Assembly: GCA_022825895.1 (NCBI GenBank)
Contig: JAJDVX010000005.1
Location: 1-64,000 of the forward strand
Direction: 5' to 3'
Length of the DNA: 64,000 nt
Origin: Chloroflexota bacterium
Lineage (GTDB): Bacteria; Chloroflexota; UBA11872
Part shown: piece after piece, positions 19,045 to 29,356 of the stretch
Position numbering within the stretch: position 1 is the stretch's first letter
Layout of the letters: each line of letters begins with the position of its first letter
Translations under genes and position numbers: made by a program
The notes under the pieces: model-generated
Told to the model about the DNA's origin: nothing
Databases searched by the model: none
The model's input: only the letters and a program-made list of their open reading frames with translations

Positions 19045-20541
19045 CTAGCCGCCCAGGTACCTCTCCACCGCCCCCGCAAACTCCTCCGCTTCGTCCTCAT
19101 AGCTCTCAAATGGATCCGGCATCTCGAAAATCCGTCCCCGAACCCCAATCCCGTCCCAATCCACCAGGTACGGCACGAACGACCAGCCTCCAAACTCATC
19201 CAGTTCCCGCCAATGTTCGATGTATTGATAGACGAGATATAGCTGGTTTTCCCAGCTCGCCAGCGCGCCCAGGTTGTGCTGGATGTCCTTCCAGTCGATG
19301 TGCGAATCCGCCCGCGCCTCGGAAAGCGCCCGCACAATTCGACCGCGCGCACCGGCTCGCGTCCCCTCGGGAATGGCCAGCGGGTTCACCGGTCCCGATA
19401 CCAACCGGTACATCAGCCCCCGCCGCTGCAACTCGCTGAACAGGCTTACCGTTGGGTCCACGTGGTGATACGCAAGGTCCAGCTTCACCAGGTCCGGGTC
19501 CGCCCAGCCTTCCGGCGAGTCGTCTGCGTACTCACGCAGTTCCGCCAGCTTCGTCACCCAGTCGACCTTGCCAATCAGGCGTTCGGGATCTGACTCCAAC
19601 GCGTCCAGGCACTCGCTCCATTCCGCCAGCGTCCAGTCCGTATCGGCATCGCGGCCCGCAAACGCCGAAGTCGCGGCCGCCAGGTAGACCCGCTGCACGT
19701 CGATCGCCGAAATCGTCCGCCCGTCCACCAGTTCCACCGGCCACGGCCCGCCCGGATTCCGCGAAATCGACTTGATCGACCGAACCGCCTCGTCCAGGTA
19801 CAGCTCCGGATTCCACCCCGCCGCCAGCAGCTGCGCCACCAGCGCCGTGGTACCCACCTTCAGGGCCGTTGCGTACTGCGACTGGTTCGCGTCGCCAACC
19901 ACCACGTGCAGCCTACGCAGACCCGTGCGCTCGCTCAGCGGCTCGTCCCGCAAGTTGATGATCGGGCGTCCGCCAAACCGCACCCGGTGACTCACGTCCA
20001 CCGACACGAACGCCGCCCGCTGCGACATGTGAAACGGCAGCCGCCCGCCCGCCTCCTGGGGATTGAGCGTCATTCCCGCCCCGGCGTACAGTTGTCGCGT
20101 CGTCAAAAACGGCAGTAGCCCAAGCACCATTTCCCGGCTGCGCGGACTCGACACGATCGAGTAGTTCTCGTGGTACCCGAAGGTGTTTCCGAGGTGGTCG
20201 GTGTTGTTCTTTATGAAGAACAGCTTCCGGTTCATCTCCTGGCGTTCGACCGTGTCCAGCAGCACGGCTGAGGCCGCGTTCTCCTGCTCCACGATGTCGC
20301 GCAGCGCCCGGCACTCGGCCGAGGCGTACTCGATGTGGCCCGAGTCCAGATAGAGCCGCGCCCCGTTGAACAGGTGCCCGCCGTTTCCCGGTTCTTCGTC
20401 CCACTCCCGGGGCGCCGGGTCAATTAGCCCGAAGCGCCGATCCTGGAACAGGATCGACTTCACCAGCCGCGCCGCCTGCCCCGGCGGCAACGCCCCGGCC
20501 GACGCGAACTCGATTTCCGTTCCAAAGACGACGTCGTCCAT
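19045..20541 (-). CDS. pafA: Pup--protein ligase PafA
   Basis: 498 residues of the carboxylate-amine ligase (glutamine synthetase-like) superfamily. FGTEIEFASAG is the nucleotide-binding start. FNGARLYLDSGHIEYASAEC holds the catalytic Asp near 66 and the metal-binding Glu. KNNTDHLGNTFGYHENY near 112-128 and HVVVGDANQSQYATALKVG near 215-233 are hallmark segments of the PafA/Dop family. Assignment as ligase and not deamidase rests on the absence of the long Dop loop before the NGARLY motif. It should join the C-terminal Glu of Pup (after deamidation) to substrate lysines with ATP. It starts 9 nt after pup. Confidence 0.9.
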   Translation of the reverse strand: MDDVVFGTEIEFASAGALPPGQAARLVKSILFQDRRFGLIDPAPREWDEEPGNGGHLFNGARLYLDSGHIEYASAECRALRDIVEQENAASAVLLDTVERQEMNRKLFFIKNNTDHLGNTFGYHENYSIVSSPRSREMVLGLLPFLTTRQLYAGAGMTLNPQEAGGRLPFHMSQRAAFVSVDVSHRVRFGGRPIINLRDEPLSERTGLRRLHVVVGDANQSQYATALKVGTTALVAQLLAAGWNPELYLDEAVRSIKSISRNPGGPWPVELVDGRTISAIDVQRVYLAAATSAFAGRDADTDWTLAEWSECLDALESDPERLIGKVDWVTKLAELREYADDSPEGWADPDLVKLDLAYHHVDPTVSLFSELQRRGLMYRLVSGPVNPLAIPEGTRAGARGRIVRALSEARADSHIDWKDIQHNLGALASWENQLYLVYQYIEHWRELDEFGGWSFVPYLVDWDGIGVRGRIFEMPDPFESYEDEAEEFAGAVERYLGG

Positions 20542-20550
20542 GCGTGCTGG

Positions 20551-20727
20551 CTATTGCCCGCCGGGTTGAGGGGTCGGGTCGGGAATCTCCCGGATGATCC
20601 GCCGCCTGCGCTCCCGCAGGTCCTCTTCTTTCTCCGGCGCCGCCGGCTCCGTCGGCGCTTCCGCCGGCTTGGTCGGCGCCTCCGTCTCGCCGCGCCACGC
20701 CGGTACTACGCGTATCAATCGCTTCAT
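20551..20727 (-). CDS. pup: Divergent prokaryotic ubiquitin-like protein (Pup), ends in GGQ
   Basis: A 58-residue frame exactly filling the space between dop and pafA, too short for many gene finders. It begins MKRLIRVVPAW, continues with a Glu/Pro/Ala-rich disordered stretch, then the charged segment KEEDLRERRRRIIREIPD, and ends PQPGGQ. The C-terminal Gly-Gly-Gln is the defining end of Dop-requiring Pup. GGGAGG, overlapping the dop stop, lies about 9 nt before the ATG, and dop ends 5 nt away, so coupling is clear. It lacks Phe and Tyr, and lacks the usual FVxxYVQKGG helix. It is therefore highly divergent; a UBact-like relative is the alternative. Lys at 2, 20 and 33. Confidence 0.85.
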   Translation of the reverse strand: MKRLIRVVPAWRGETEAPTKPAEAPTEPAAPEKEEDLRERRRRIIREIPDPTPQPGGQ

Positions 20728-20732
20728 GTCAT

Positions 20733-22235
20733 TTACCTCCCGTCCGCGTCCAGCGCGGTCAGCAATCCCTCCAGTGTGTCCGCCTCCGCAACCATCCGTC
20801 CCAGCCGATCCACCTCTGGACCAGCAACGTCGTCGAATCGCAGCGTCACGTCATATCCATTTCGACGAAACACTACCCGGTCCCACTCCACCGCACTGAT
20901 GTCCTTGCCAAACCGCCGCAGCACGTCTCCGCGCACGGCAGCCCGTGTGCCCGTCGGCGGCGTCGTCATCGCCCGCTCGATATCCGCATTGTTCACGATC
21001 CGCCGCATTCGTCCTTCGTCCACCAGCATGTCGTACACGCACCAGTCCGGATCCAGCACGTGGTACCCCAGGTCGACCCGCCGTGCATCTCCGTCGTTCC
21101 ACTCCGGTCCAAAGTCCTCCCGCATCTCCTCCATCAGGCACTCTTTCGCCACCCAATCCACCCGATCCGCCGCCAGCGACCGGTTGCGTCCCAGGTCGTC
21201 CAGCACCGCCGACCACTCATCCAGCACCCACGTCGTCTCCGTGTCCCGCCCTCGATACCGCTGTGCCGCCTCGCAATACCACCGCTGCACATCCAAACCC
21301 GAAACCGGCCCTCCGCGCTCCAGGTCCACCACAGCGCCAAAGTCCAGGTCGTGCGAGACCCGCCGAACCGTCCGCACCGGGTTCGTCGGTCGGTCAGACG
21401 GCCGCCATCCCTCCATTGCCAGGTCTAACACCAGGGCGGTGGTGCCCACCTTCATTGCTGTCGCCCATTCGCTGCGGTTTGCGTCGCCGGCAATCACGTG
21501 CAGCCGCCGGTACTTCCCGGCGTCGGCGTGCGGCTCGTCCCGGGTGTTGAAGATCGGCCGTCGCGCCGTGGTGTTGATCCCGGTCACTTCCTCGAAGAAA
21601 TCCGCCCGCTGCGACATCTGCAACTGCAGCGGGTCGCCCCCCTCGATCCCAACCCGCCCGGCTCCCGCAAACGCCTGCCGCGTCGCCAGGAACGGCACCG
21701 TCACCCGGATCAGGTCGTCCGTCGGAATCCTCCGCGACGTCAGGTAATTCTCGTGGCAGCCGTAGCTGCGGCCGTGATAGTCCGTGTTGTTCTTCAGCAA
21801 ACGGATCTGCCCATAACCCAGCTTCGCGTTCCGCGCCGTCTCCGCCGCGAACATCACCCGCTCGCCCGCCTTGTCCTGGGCCACCAGGTCCTTGAGCGTC
21901 AGGCAGACGTCCGTGCAGTACTCGGGATGGTTGTGGTCGTTGTACAGCCGTGCCCCGTTGCGCAGCACGGTGTTCGAGAGCAGCTCGTCGCGCGACATCC
22001 CTCGGCTACGGTCCGTCGACCCCGTCAGATCCCGCGGGTCCCGCTCCAGCCGATTCGCTCGCCCGCCCCGCAAGTCACGGTACGGGTCCTCGCCCACGTA
22101 GTCCCAGCCGCGAAACGCGCCCTCAACCGGCGCCGCCTGGATCAGTCGGGCCGCCTCGTAGGCGAAATCGGGTTCGCCCGCAAAGCCCTCGCAGTTGAGC
22201 CCGTATTCGGTCTCGATGCCTGCGGGACGGTTCAT
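20733..22235 (-). CDS. dop: Pup deamidase/depupylase Dop
   Basis: 500 residues. GIETEYGLNCEG is the nucleotide site. The Dop-specific loop runs about residues 40-80 (GWDYVGEDPYRDLRGGRANR and onward). NGARLYNDHNHPEYCTD holds the catalytic Asp and the metal-binding His/Glu. KNNTDYHGRSYGCHENYL near 150 and HVIAGDANRSEWATAMKVG near 245 are shared with PafA. The enzyme converts the C-terminal Gln of Pup to Glu and also removes Pup from substrates. A GGQ-ending Pup directly downstream agrees with the need for deamidation. It is first in the dop-pup-pafA operon. No proteasome subunit or Mpa/ARC gene is in the window. Confidence 0.93.
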   Translation of the reverse strand: MNRPAGIETEYGLNCEGFAGEPDFAYEAARLIQAAPVEGAFRGWDYVGEDPYRDLRGGRANRLERDPRDLTGSTDRSRGMSRDELLSNTVLRNGARLYNDHNHPEYCTDVCLTLKDLVAQDKAGERVMFAAETARNAKLGYGQIRLLKNNTDYHGRSYGCHENYLTSRRIPTDDLIRVTVPFLATRQAFAGAGRVGIEGGDPLQLQMSQRADFFEEVTGINTTARRPIFNTRDEPHADAGKYRRLHVIAGDANRSEWATAMKVGTTALVLDLAMEGWRPSDRPTNPVRTVRRVSHDLDFGAVVDLERGGPVSGLDVQRWYCEAAQRYRGRDTETTWVLDEWSAVLDDLGRNRSLAADRVDWVAKECLMEEMREDFGPEWNDGDARRVDLGYHVLDPDWCVYDMLVDEGRMRRIVNNADIERAMTTPPTGTRAAVRGDVLRRFGKDISAVEWDRVVFRRNGYDVTLRFDDVAGPEVDRLGRMVAEADTLEGLLTALDADGR

Positions 22236-23380: not shown

Positions 23381-25546
23381 ATGACCGACAGAGAGGCGAT
23401 TCAGCGCAGCCAGCAAGGCGACCGTCTGGCCTTCCGTCACTTGGTCGACCGCTACCAGAACGACCTCTATGGCACCGCCGCCCTGATGACCGGAAGCCAT
23501 ACGCTGGCGGCGCAACAGGTCCGCGACGTTTTCCGCCTGACCTGGCGAGGCATCCACGGCTTCAGCAGTGACTGCCCGGCCAAGCCCTGGCTCATGCGAA
23601 TCCTGGTCCGCCAGAACGCTTCCCGGCGACGCCTGACGTCGTCTGCAACGGTCGCCTCGAGCAGTCGCTCGCAAACGCGGAAACACCCGGAATCCAACCG
23701 GCCCGGCCCCTCAGATTGCGAGCGCGGGACAGTTCGACAGGCATTCGCGGGACTCGACCCAGACCACCGCGACGTTCTGATCCTGCGCTACTTCACCGAC
23801 TTGCAGGGAACCCAGCTGGCACTGGCGCTGGGCGCCGCCGAGCACACGGTCGACTCGAGCCTGCAAGTGGCACTCGGCCAGTTTCGCGAACGACTCCACG
23901 ATCTCGGCGCTATAGAAACGTCCGACCAGGGTGCGCCGTGCTCCGATCAGAGACTTGCCGACTCGCTGCGGACCTACTTCCGCCAGGCCGCTTTCGCCGT
24001 GCACTGCCCTACGGACCTCGGGCCCTTCATCGAAAACCGTCTCCACGCCTCTTCCCGCCTCGCCGGGATTCGGCGCAAGCTGCTAGCCGCCGCCGGTCGG
24101 CTGTGGACCCCGGTGATGGCCAGTGGCGGAGCGGTCGCGGCCGCCTCGATCCTGGTCGGCGCGGCAACCGTCGCCTGCGGCGAGTCCGAGACTGTTGATC
24201 GGACGGCGGTCAGGGAGACTCCGGCCGCCGCGGCCGCCCCAGCGCCCGCCTTCACGGCAGCGGCGATTCCCGCCCCGGCGTCCGCCGCCGCTTCCGTCGC
24301 GATGGCCGACCCACCTGCCGCCCTGCCCCCTGCGCCCTCCCTAGCGGCTGTCGCGACCGCAGCCCCGGCTCCCGCCATGGAGACGGTGGTCAAAGAGGCG
24401 CCGGCGGAGAGGGCTGTCGTCCGGGAAGCCCCGGTCGAGAAGGTCGTAGCCAGGGAGGTTGTCGTCGAAAAGCTCATGACGGCCCCGCCGGCCGCTGCCA
24501 TCGAGGCTTCAGCCCCGCGGCGCGAGTATCAGCCTGTCGACCTCACCGCCGGCGAAGTCAACGACAACGAGAAGTGGACCGAGTACCTGAGCTACCGCGA
24601 CAACTATCGCGGCCCGCCGGTCCACGACGTTGACGTATCCGAGCGATTCACTATCACCGTGCTCGACTCACTCGAGCGACCGGTGCCAAACGCCGCGGTC
24701 TCCGTCACGGCCGGGGAATCCCTCATCTTTGAGGGCCGCACGTACGCCACCGGCCAGACCCTTTTCTTCCCGCGGGCCTTTCCCCTGGCGTCCAATGCCC
24801 GGACGTACCGCCTTGACGTGGAGAAAGACGGCATTCGTCAGTCGCTCACGGCGGAACGCGACGGAGAATCCGAGTGGTTCATCCAGTTGGACGTCGACCA
24901 ACCCTACGGCGACCGCGTTCCCCTCGACCTACTGTTCCTCCTGGACGCCACCGGCAGCATGGCCGACGAGATTGCCCAGATCAAAGCCACGCTCCTCTCG
25001 GTCTCGCAGCGCATCGGCGCCTTGCCCTCGCGACCCGACCTCCGCGTTGGGATGGTCACCTACCGCGATCGCGGCGACGACTTCGTCACCCGGCTCTACG
25101 ACTTTGAGGCCAACGTCCCGACCTTCTTAAACACAATTCAAGATGTGGTCGCCGACGGCGGCGACGACTATCCCGAGTCGCTAAACGAAGCCCTGCACGT
25201 TGCCGTCCACACACCGGCCTGGCGCCTCGACAACGCAATACGGCTTGTCATCCTCGTGGCCGACGCGCCGCCCCACCTGGACTACCCCCAGGACTACGAC
25301 TATGCCTCCGAGATGATGGAGGCCCACCGCCGGGGCCTGAAGATCTTCAGCATCGCCTCCAGTGGCCTGGATGAGCAGGGCGAATACATCTTCCGCCAGC
25401 TGGCCCAGCACACCATGGGGCGGTTCTTGTTCCTTCTCTATGGCGGCGAAACCTCCCACAGCGTCTCCGACTACTCGATCGAGCAACTCGACGATCTCGT
25501 CGTCCGCCTCGTCAAGGAGGAGCTCGACTACCTCAAGCCGCGCTAA
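23381..25546 (+). CDS. ECF-sigma-like domain fused through a membrane span to a von Willebrand A domain
   Basis: 721 residues in one uninterrupted frame. Residues 1-85 match sigma region 2 (AFRHLVDRYQNDLYGTA, then FRLTWRGIHGF and KPWLMRILV). Residues 120-175 match region 4 (LDPDHRDVLILRYFTDLQG and a helix-turn-helix). A membrane span lies near 245-265 (SGGAVAAASILVGAATVACG). An Ala/Pro-rich linker with Val-Glu-Lys repeats follows to about 386, then a beta-sandwich-like segment (420-510). A vWA domain begins near 520, with LLFLLDATGSMADEI giving a DxTxS form of the metal site. The topology would place sigma inside and vWA outside. It is probably a membrane-tethered regulator; no anti-sigma gene is adjacent. 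Confidence 0.8.
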   Translation: MTDREAIQRSQQGDRLAFRHLVDRYQNDLYGTAALMTGSHTLAAQQVRDVFRLTWRGIHGFSSDCPAKPWLMRILVRQNASRRRLTSSATVASSSRSQTRKHPESNRPGPSDCERGTVRQAFAGLDPDHRDVLILRYFTDLQGTQLALALGAAEHTVDSSLQVALGQFRERLHDLGAIETSDQGAPCSDQRLADSLRTYFRQAAFAVHCPTDLGPFIENRLHASSRLAGIRRKLLAAAGRLWTPVMASGGAVAAASILVGAATVACGESETVDRTAVRETPAAAAAPAPAFTAAAIPAPASAAASVAMADPPAALPPAPSLAAVATAAPAPAMETVVKEAPAERAVVREAPVEKVVAREVVVEKLMTAPPAAAIEASAPRREYQPVDLTAGEVNDNEKWTEYLSYRDNYRGPPVHDVDVSERFTITVLDSLERPVPNAAVSVTAGESLIFEGRTYATGQTLFFPRAFPLASNARTYRLDVEKDGIRQSLTAERDGESEWFIQLDVDQPYGDRVPLDLLFLLDATGSMADEIAQIKATLLSVSQRIGALPSRPDLRVGMVTYRDRGDDFVTRLYDFEANVPTFLNTIQDVVADGGDDYPESLNEALHVAVHTPAWRLDNAIRLVILVADAPPHLDYPQDYDYASEMMEAHRRGLKIFSIASSGLDEQGEYIFRQLAQHTMGRFLFLLYGGETSHSVSDYSIEQLDDLVVRLVKEELDYLKPR

Positions 25547-27931: not shown

Positions 27932-29356
27932 CTAGTCGCTCTCGTCGGTGTCGTCGGTGTCGTCGGTTTCCGCTTCCTCGTTCCCAGTGGTGTCAAACCC
28001 GTCGTGGTCGGTATTGGCGGTGGTATCGAAGCCGTCGCGGTCGGTGTTGGCGGTGGTGTCGAAGCCGTCGCGATCAGTATCTCCGGTGGTATCGAAGCCA
28101 TCATTGTCCGTGTTGGCAGTGGTGTCGAAGCCGTCGTGGTCGGTGTTGGCGGTGGTGTCGAAGCCGTCGTGGTCGGTATTGGCCGTCGTGTCGAAACCGT
28201 CGCGATCAGTATCTCCGGTGGTATCGAAGCCATCGTGGTCGGTGTTGGCGGTGGTGTCGAAGCCGTCGTGGTCGGTATCGGCAGTGGTGTCGAAGCCGTC
28301 GTGGTCAGTATTGGCCGTCGTGTCGAAACCGTCGCGATCAGTATCTCCGGTGGTATCGAAGCCATCATTGTCCGTATTGGCGGTGGTGTCGTAGCCATCG
28401 TGGTCCGTGTTGGCGGTGGTGTCGAAGCCGTCGTGGTCGGTATTGGCCGTGGTGTCAAACCCGTCGTGGTCGGTGCCGGGCGGGTTGTCCGCAGCTTCTT
28501 GCTCGTCGTCCCTGCTGGCGTCGTCTTCGTCAGATCGACGGTACATCTGCTGAGGCTCGAAGGCACCCACCTGCCGCGGCGAAAGGGGGATTTCGGTCAC
28601 ATCGGGAACAATCACGTTTACCAGTTGCTTCACCTTGTCCGGCAGGTTTTGCAGCACCACCTTGCCAGCCGTCGTGCCGGGCGCCGAAACATTCCAGATG
28701 GCAAACACGGCACGTTGTGCGCGCAATAGCTGGAGCCCCTGGGGATTGCCGTTCACTTCCCGCTCCTCATAACGAATCGGCAGCCCGTACAGGTTTAACC
28801 AGTCGCGTTCTCCGAGGAACCGGGCCTTGATGGCGGGGTTGGCATCCAACAGCGCCAGGTGGTTTTGCTTGACCGTCTCAAAATCAGCCCCGGCGTCGGA
28901 CGCAAGCACCTGGTGCGCCGGCACGTTCGGCAGCTTGATGTTGGGGTAGTGATTCGCCAGGACGTCCAGCGTGTTGTAGAAGTTCATCCGCTGGTTGGCC
29001 GGGTCCCACTGCAGGATCACCTTCTGAAACGCTTGCAGCGTGAAGGGTCCCTCAAGCCAACGCTGGCTGATCGGATAGCCAATGGCTTCGGCGTCGAGCT
29101 CGCGCACGAAATCCCACATTGGCACCCCGCCGGCGTTGGTCACGGCAAACCCGTCGTTTGGATCGGACGTGTCGCTGCCCGTATTGGCGAACAGGCAGCC
29201 TCCGCTAAGCGGCGTGCCTACGCAGTCCAGCGCCCGCAGGGCGGTCAGCGGGCCCGCAAACGCCAGGCAGACCGCGGCGGCGGCAGCCAGGCACAAGCGC
29301 ACACGCTCCCAGCGTGTGAAGCCGCGCCTCATCGACATCACACCAGCGTTGGCCAT
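27932..29356 (-). CDS. Secreted acidic protein with 15 perfect-register 11-residue repeats
   Basis: 474 residues. A signal sequence (MRRGFTRWERVRLCLAAAAA, then a hydrophobic run) is followed by a globular domain (about residues 45-285) with FQKVILQWDP and FYNTLDVLANHYPNIKLPN. I know this kind of domain from uncharacterised Chloroflexota/actinobacterial secreted proteins. The C-terminus has 15 copies of an 11-residue unit of the type TDHDGFDTTAN, then a Glu/Asp tail. D-x-D-G-x-D spacing resembles thrombospondin type-3 or dockerin calcium loops, so Ca2+ binding is plausible. A surface or extracellular role is inferred. ATG 29356 follows AAGAGGAG at about 8 nt. Confidence 0.8.
   Translation of the reverse strand: MANAGVMSMRRGFTRWERVRLCLAAAAAVCLAFAGPLTALRALDCVGTPLSGGCLFANTGSDTSDPNDGFAVTNAGGVPMWDFVRELDAEAIGYPISQRWLEGPFTLQAFQKVILQWDPANQRMNFYNTLDVLANHYPNIKLPNVPAHQVLASDAGADFETVKQNHLALLDANPAIKARFLGERDWLNLYGLPIRYEEREVNGNPQGLQLLRAQRAVFAIWNVSAPGTTAGKVVLQNLPDKVKQLVNVIVPDVTEIPLSPRQVGAFEPQQMYRRSDEDDASRDDEQEAADNPPGTDHDGFDTTANTDHDGFDTTANTDHDGYDTTANTDNDGFDTTGDTDRDGFDTTANTDHDGFDTTADTDHDGFDTTANTDHDGFDTTGDTDRDGFDTTANTDHDGFDTTANTDHDGFDTTANTDNDGFDTTGDTDRDGFDTTANTDRDGFDTTANTDHDGFDTTGNEEAETDDTDDTDESD
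27980..28474. repeat. Fifteen 33-bp coding repeats with a 132-bp higher-order period
   Basis: These are 15 tandem 33-bp units encoding TD-H/N/R-DGFDTT-xx. The last two residues are mostly Ala-Asn but become Gly-Asp at units 4, 8 and 12. This means the array grew by duplication of a four-unit (132-bp) block. All units stay in frame. Confidence 0.92.

Follow-up and report, generated by a model that had tools for sequence, protein, structure and literature searches.

A window of 64,000 nucleotides from a Chloroflexota bacterium, the whole stretch of DNA analyzed here, contains a short open reading frame ending in Gly-Gly-Gln between two genes whose products both belong to the Pup_ligase family (PF03136; 480 bits for the upstream dop and 345 bits for the downstream pafA). 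According to the available text of PMC3511204 and PMC2588565, the modifier Pup ends in Glu, or in a Gln that Dop deamidates. The locus raises the question of whether the short frame encodes a modifier of the same kind, to which family such a modifier would belong, and what would read it in the cell. Our main reading, held with a probability of about 0.87, is that the 58-residue protein serves as the modifier in a tagging system of the pupylation type; PafA would ligate it to its targets and Dop would remove it.

Table 1. Features of the dop-pafA cassette, in window coordinates.
Feature	Coordinates	Strand	Description
dop, deamidase/depupylase homologue	20733..22235	minus	500 aa
small gene, putative Pup-like modifier	20551..20727	minus	58 aa, C-terminus RIIREIPDPTPQPGGQ
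pafA, Pup-ligase homologue	19045..20541	minus	498 aa, without Dop-loop
Shine-Dalgarno-like GGGAGG	20736..20741	minus	directly before the dop stop, ahead of the small-gene ATG; read from the sequence

The small gene and its distribution

The dop stop codon TAA ends at 20733 and the ATG of the small gene lies at 20727, leaving a gap of 5 nt; the stop codon of the small gene ends at 20551, and 9 nt separate it from the pafA ATG at 20541. These gaps, together with the GGGAGG abutting the dop stop (Table 1), agree with the coupling to both neighbors proposed in a preliminary description of this DNA, and the coordinates and translation likewise bear out the 58-residue GGQ frame that it placed between dop and pafA. 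The translation ends in Pro-Gly-Gly-Gln, and the window copy comprises 10 Pro and 9 Arg and, as had been claimed, neither Phe nor Tyr. Elsewhere in the window, a 721-aa frame (23381-25546, plus strand) resembles by eye a fusion of an ECF sigma factor with a von Willebrand A-type domain, and a 474-aa frame (27932-29356, minus strand) contains many tandem Asp-rich units such as DHDGFDTTANT, which look by eye like calcium-binding repeats.

Of the 400 Chloroflexota genomes drawn, 39 have PF03136, and every one of them falls among the 41 genomes of a single class of uncultured bacteria. The available text of PMC10608941 treats UBA2235/UBA11872 as a class-level lineage and reports UBA11872 metagenome-assembled genomes (MAGs) from corals and sponges only. 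A profile built from 17 tag sequences, which does not require the tail motif, returns one match each in 38 of the 41 class genomes, and the conserved small frame that the preliminary description expected in relatives is thus found, at the dop-pafA position. Among the 39 class genomes bearing PF03136, the only one devoid of a recognizable small gene is G012, in which the tag site is a run of Ns. The two others, G003 (76% complete) and G021 (93% complete), have neither PF03136 nor the small gene, the whole cassette being absent. At the level of individual loci, the small gene lies between the two enzyme genes in 37 of the 38 relative loci fetched, as well as in the window.

The window's own locus and 37 of the 38 relative loci contain the motif R[IV][IV]RExPxPTPQPGG[EQ], followed directly by the stop codon. 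The sole miss is the G012 locus (L037), which was left out of the tail count. Among the 15 residues that precede the last one (RIIREIPDPTPQPGG), 12 are identical in 38/38 sequences, the collecting motif itself fixing most of the letters called invariant, GG[EQ] included; no intact locus failed this motif, and the profile search recovered the same 38 genomes. Over the same 38 sequences, the Pro, Thr, Pro, Gln, Pro, Gly, and Gly preceding the terminal residue show 2-4 synonymous codons at each position. The small frame is a genuine gene, because 38 of 41 genomes encode the tag and because the tail stays the same in spite of synonymous codon variation, and a chance open frame is rejected on the same grounds. 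The N-terminal part of the tag varies in sequence and in length (proteins of 57 to 108 aa). The tag alignment comprises 17 of the 33 available sequences (the window and 32 loci), several of them cut at the N-terminus by the limits of the match.

The last residue is Glu in 24 and Gln in 14 of the 38 sequences, and is preceded by Gly-Gly in all of them. In a tree of concatenated Dop and PafA sequences from 20 genomes, well-supported branches force at least three changes between Glu and Gln, one of the three resting on a Gln row (genus g3) that forms a long branch. The trees include one to three loci per genus.

When genome contigs are scanned with the tag alignment, 32 of the 272 pattern matches prove to encode a relative; by title, 30 of these records are Chloroflexi or Chloroflexota and 2 are Thermoflexus. 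In viral contigs, 21 stretches fit a tag pattern and none is confirmed, and a query with a single PafA, which reaches close relatives only, returns no match. Two plasmid records match, both actinobacterial. The only match from the phage collection is MT835496.1 (L130:8001-11110), an unverified bacteriophage record from human stool that carries an actinobacterial-type dop-pup-pafA cassette. This cassette, probably host DNA, was used as a reference for the actinobacterial type.

The flanking enzymes and the predicted chemistry

The dop product scores 415 bits with the Dop model TIGR03688 against 341 bits with the PafA model TIGR03686, the former value lying below the equivalog cut-off of 492 bits. 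Its best solved relatives are the Dops 4b0r/5lrt (residues 1-466, E 3e-103). All 24 aligned class Dops (out of 33 available sequences, a broken dop at L118 being excluded) have W44, R96, Y98, D100, and T222, which align to W47, R90, Y92, D94, and T217 of the A. cellulolyticus Dop. The class homologues keep the Dop-loop, an Asp at the D94 position (D100 here), which we take to be the catalytic Asp, and the alpha-loop Thr that holds the last residue of Pup. In the available text of PMC8599861, on the Dop-Pup structure, W47, R90, and Y92 belong to the Dop-loop of the A. cellulolyticus enzyme and T217 to its alpha-loop. The upstream gene is assigned as Dop by best match.

Regarding the downstream gene, its product scores 281 bits with TIGR03686 against 251 bits with TIGR03688 and does not reach the equivalog cut-off of 551 bits. 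Alignment with two actinobacterial-type PafAs indicates that the Dop-loop is absent and that the YLDxGHxEYA[ST]xEC region of PafA is kept. D66 and R192 are invariant in the 25 class PafA sequences aligned, out of 33 available; they align to D64 of the solved PafA, the active-site Asp position, and to its R201, the Arg that meets the end of Pup. Two further features of the class enzyme are absent from the two actinobacterial-type PafAs compared: a class-specific stretch at residues 42-55, PxPREWxExPGNGG, and an extension by ~45 residues at the C-terminus. Its predicted model (mean pLDDT 77, pTM 0.85, residues 43-51 below 50) returns as top Foldseek match the PafA-Pup structure 4bjr_B, tied with the Dop 5lrt (E 8e-27 and TM 0.76 for each). 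In a tree whose references are five actinobacterial-type enzymes, with no Nitrospirae or Planctomycetes among them, the branch leading to the class PafAs is long, and mapping the PafA label takes two changes, or possibly one. The assignment as a ligase rests on the missing Dop-loop, the motif, and the gene position rather than on a settled orthology to the actinobacterial PafA. A third Pup_ligase-family protein (479 aa, PF03136 211 bits) is encoded in genome G040 (contig C77, L155:7653-9092). No frame of at least 40 aa ending in G[E/Q] occurs in the 10.3 kb around this orphan PafA-like enzyme.

With these two enzymes, Dop would deamidate the C-terminal Gln of the modifier to Glu, a step that would not be needed in the class members whose gene already encodes a terminal Glu. 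PafA would then use ATP to activate the side chain of this Glu and join the modifier to lysines of target proteins, and Dop could take the tag off again. The predicted structure of the tag is a coil with one helix at residues 34-43 (mean pLDDT 67). The modifier may therefore be mostly disordered with a short helix, its Pro-rich tail leading the terminal Glu to the pocket of the enzyme; this predicted disorder is in line with the disordered Pup. The residues before the end are frozen while the last one switches between Glu and Gln, as Pup chemistry predicts, which argues that the protein is a substrate of Dop and PafA. To our knowledge, no other reading predicts a switching of this kind. A small protein that stays unconjugated and regulates Dop or PafA, for instance as a pseudo-substrate inhibitor, could also be conserved in just the part expected to go into the pocket of the enzyme. 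Such a regulator is very improbable, as it fails to explain at least three Glu/Gln switches beside fixed preceding residues and leaves the real modifier unaccounted for, since no Pup or UBact lies over cut-off in the 41 class genomes.

Relationship to Pup and UBact

If the small protein is a modifier, its sequence matches neither of the two families modeled so far. None of the 17 members matches the Pup models PF05639 or TIGR03687 at E up to 1, and none matches the UBact models PF20513 or NF033388, although the controls do: one actinobacterial-type Pup matches PF05639 (E 4e-18), two match TIGR03687 (9e-21 and 2e-20), and a UBact-like control sequence matches PF20513 and NF033388 (8e-19 and 9e-21). 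One of the small proteins returns weak matches with unrelated Pfam families (FtsA_C, E 0.04; HTH_32, E 0.11). Therefore, judged by its sequence, the protein reads as a third type of Pup-like modifier, within a cassette devoid of the usual readers. The preliminary description had left the choice between an extreme Pup and a UBact-like third form, and these searches settle on the third form as far as sequence type is concerned.

The two Pfam models were also applied to the 41 class genomes. Canonical Pup (PF05639) is over cut-off in none of them, with weaker matches in 14 (best E 0.007), and the window's genome, which is 94% complete, does not return even a sub-cut-off match. UBact (PF20513) is likewise over cut-off in 0/41, the weak matches in 35 genomes also occurring in 6 control genomes. 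A canonical Pup or UBact encoded elsewhere in the class genomes is thus rejected, and the normal Pup that, according to the preliminary description, would have spoken against its reading if present in the same genome is not found over cut-off.

The class system shares with that of Actinobacteria (PF05639/TIGR03687) the dop-pup-pafA order, both enzyme families, and the Gly-Gly-[Glu/Gln] end of a tag that is likewise small, predicted to be disordered, and variable between species in its terminal Glu or Gln. This gene order is observed with a canonical GGQ Pup in an actinobacterial-type cassette. In contrast, the class tag has no match with the Pup models and lacks the FVxxYVQKGG-type second helix, its tail being IPDPTPQPGG instead; the class PafA has its own stretch and C-terminal extension, and no over-cut-off Mpa or 20S pair accompanies the enzymes.

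These resemblances bear on the origin of the tag, which may be a member of the Pup family, homologous to canonical Pup and diverged past detection. This origin is compatible with the modifier reading, and we consider the chances for and against it to be balanced. It would account for the same gene slot, the same G-G-[E/Q] end, and a Gln shared five residues from the end, and it fits with a Dop homologue that matches solved Dops along its length. When the sequences are anchored at their C-terminus, the hydrophobic pairs I/L, L/I, A/I, and F/I coincide with the class consensus, with shuffle P values down to 0.002. However, these values range up to 0.32 over 10 non-independent pairs, one of the five tails being a consensus and not a natural sequence, and the anchored comparison is weak as a whole. 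The comparison of the tag profile with two canonical Pups by hhalign, itself a weak test, is not significant (probability 0.6-1%), all 17 members fail to match PF05639 or TIGR03687, and IPDPTP stands in place of the FVRSYV-type second helix.

UBact, the other bacterial tag family known so far, occurs in Nitrospirae and other Gram-negative phyla; it is served by Dop/PafA-type enzymes and ends in RQRSG[E/Q]. The class tag resembles it in being small and rich in Pro and Arg, in lacking Phe and Tyr in the window copy, and in its G-[E/Q] end. That the small protein is itself a UBact is nevertheless very unlikely: the two UBact models match the UBact-like control and none of the 17 members, PF20513 is over cut-off in no class genome, and the class end PQPGG[E/Q] differs from RQRSG[E/Q].

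Candidate readers and the meaning of the tag

In the class, the Mpa/ARC model TIGR03689 is over cut-off in 0/41 genomes. Sub-cut-off AAA matches with this model (123-221 bits) occur in 40 of the 41 and are rejected as Mpa, all being far below cut-off; at that level, 14/14 control genomes match, one of them over cut-off. The Mpa domain PF16450 is marginally over cut-off in two class genomes, G020 and G023 (23.1 against 23 bits, in 447-aa frames). The best sub-cut-off match of the Mpa model in the class, with 221 bits, is a 719-aa protein of genome G040 (contig C396, L156:6641-8800), which contains two AAA matches and is Cdc48-like by layout.

Regarding the proteasome core, a PF00227 search of the 41 class genomes returns no pair of 20S alpha and beta subunits. 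The proteasome fold is found in three of them, with one match each, and the window's genome is among the three. Its match is a 246-aa proteasome-beta-like Ntn hydrolase (contig C10 of G000, L073:1243-1983; PF00227 42 bits), which stays below the cut-offs of the four proteasome and HslV equivalogs that it matches, and whose gene lies, by eye, near NADH dehydrogenase subunit-like genes. As a 20S core, this match is rejected, being a single protein that is otherwise present in only two class relatives. The claim of the preliminary description that neither a proteasome core nor Mpa is visible stands for Mpa over cut-off and for the 20S pair, and has to be qualified by this proteasome-beta-like protein in the window's genome.

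Loss of an existing proteasome and Mpa from metagenome assemblies would also leave such a picture, given that all 32 titled tag records are MAGs and that the completeness of the 41 genomes ranges from 69 to 98%. We regard this explanation as barely credible: completeness reaches 90% or more, with contamination of 5% or less, in 24 class genomes, Mpa stays below cut-off throughout the 41, and G002, a single contig of 3.0 Mb, has no PF00227 match.

Pupylation genes are found without proteasome subunit genes in corynebacteria, which keep the proteasomal ATPase (available text of PMC3511204); for the C. glutamicum ATPase ARC, a role in iron release from ferritin has been proposed (available text of PMC8223512). 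The class shares with corynebacteria the missing 20S and differs from them by its noncanonical tag and by the lack of any over-cut-off Mpa/ARC match. The suggestion that pupylation works here without a proteasome, as in corynebacteria, therefore holds for the 20S pair, while the parallel is incomplete because corynebacteria keep ARC, for which this class has no over-cut-off match. Plesiocystis and Rhodopirellula, compared here by description, offer another likeness: according to the available text of PMC2588565, a gene of the PafA type occurs there together with Pup, proteasome genes are absent from the neighborhood, and their tags are listed among the Pup orthologues of other phyla. Like the class, they combine PafA and a tag without linked proteasome genes.

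Since searches of the class returned neither Mpa/ARC nor a 20S pair, the action of the tag most likely involves no dedicated Pup-proteasome, the tag being either a regulatory mark that is reversible or a handle offered to a general AAA+ protein. The second option, in which a general AAA+ protease (FtsH, ClpC, Lon, or a Cdc48-like protein), and not Mpa and 20S, would recognize the tag as a signal for degradation, is compatible with the modifier reading and is one that we hold as possible, at clearly less than even odds. General AAA+ proteins could still unfold tagged proteins, because sub-cut-off AAA matches exist in 40 of 41 genomes, and in three order-level genera (g3, g4, and g6) a ClpC-like ORF, identified by eye, is located ~5-6 kb upstream of dop. 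Against this option, no tag-binding domain was identified, and no AAA or protease gene was found as a class-wide neighbor of the cassette among the clusters listed for the 16 loci compared (out of 38 relative loci). In this comparison (ORFs of at least 70 aa), the genes beside the cassette, beyond the three, recur in at most 5 of the 16 loci among the first 25 clusters listed.

Taken together, the modifier reading can be extended to a more specific proposal: a third class of modifier with a rigid Pro-rich tail, confined among the genomes searched to one Chloroflexota class, joined to its targets by a refitted ligase (PxPREWxExPGNGG and the C-terminal extension) and serving as a reversible mark without proteasome or Mpa. 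We hold this full proposal tentatively, at slightly short of even odds. Both the chemistry and the enzymes belong to a known kind; what is new, within the material searched, is the sequence of the tag, the class that hosts it, and the lack of the readers.

No report of pupylation in Chloroflexota was found in the open-licence literature, which was the scope of the search. PMC7947786 gives a list of phyla that have Dop/PafA; its main text, as available, does not contain the word Chloroflexi, and neither does that of PMC2588565. In its available text, a 2024 review (PMC10991733) states that pupylation is absent outside Actinobacteria, a statement that the older PMC2588565, in the part available, already contradicts. 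The unusual tail of the tag would leave a diagnostic tryptic remnant on lysine, with a computed mass of +1217.56 Da in the case of EIPDPTPQPGGE and +1203.54 Da in that of the EVP form, compared with +243.09 Da for GGE, and existing sponge-symbiont metaproteomes are therefore searchable for it. If the modifier reading is true, pupylation would extend to a phylum for which no report was found, with a third tag family overlooked by Pfam and NCBIfam, and tagging without a proteasome or ATPase would make the role of Pup beyond degradation directly testable.
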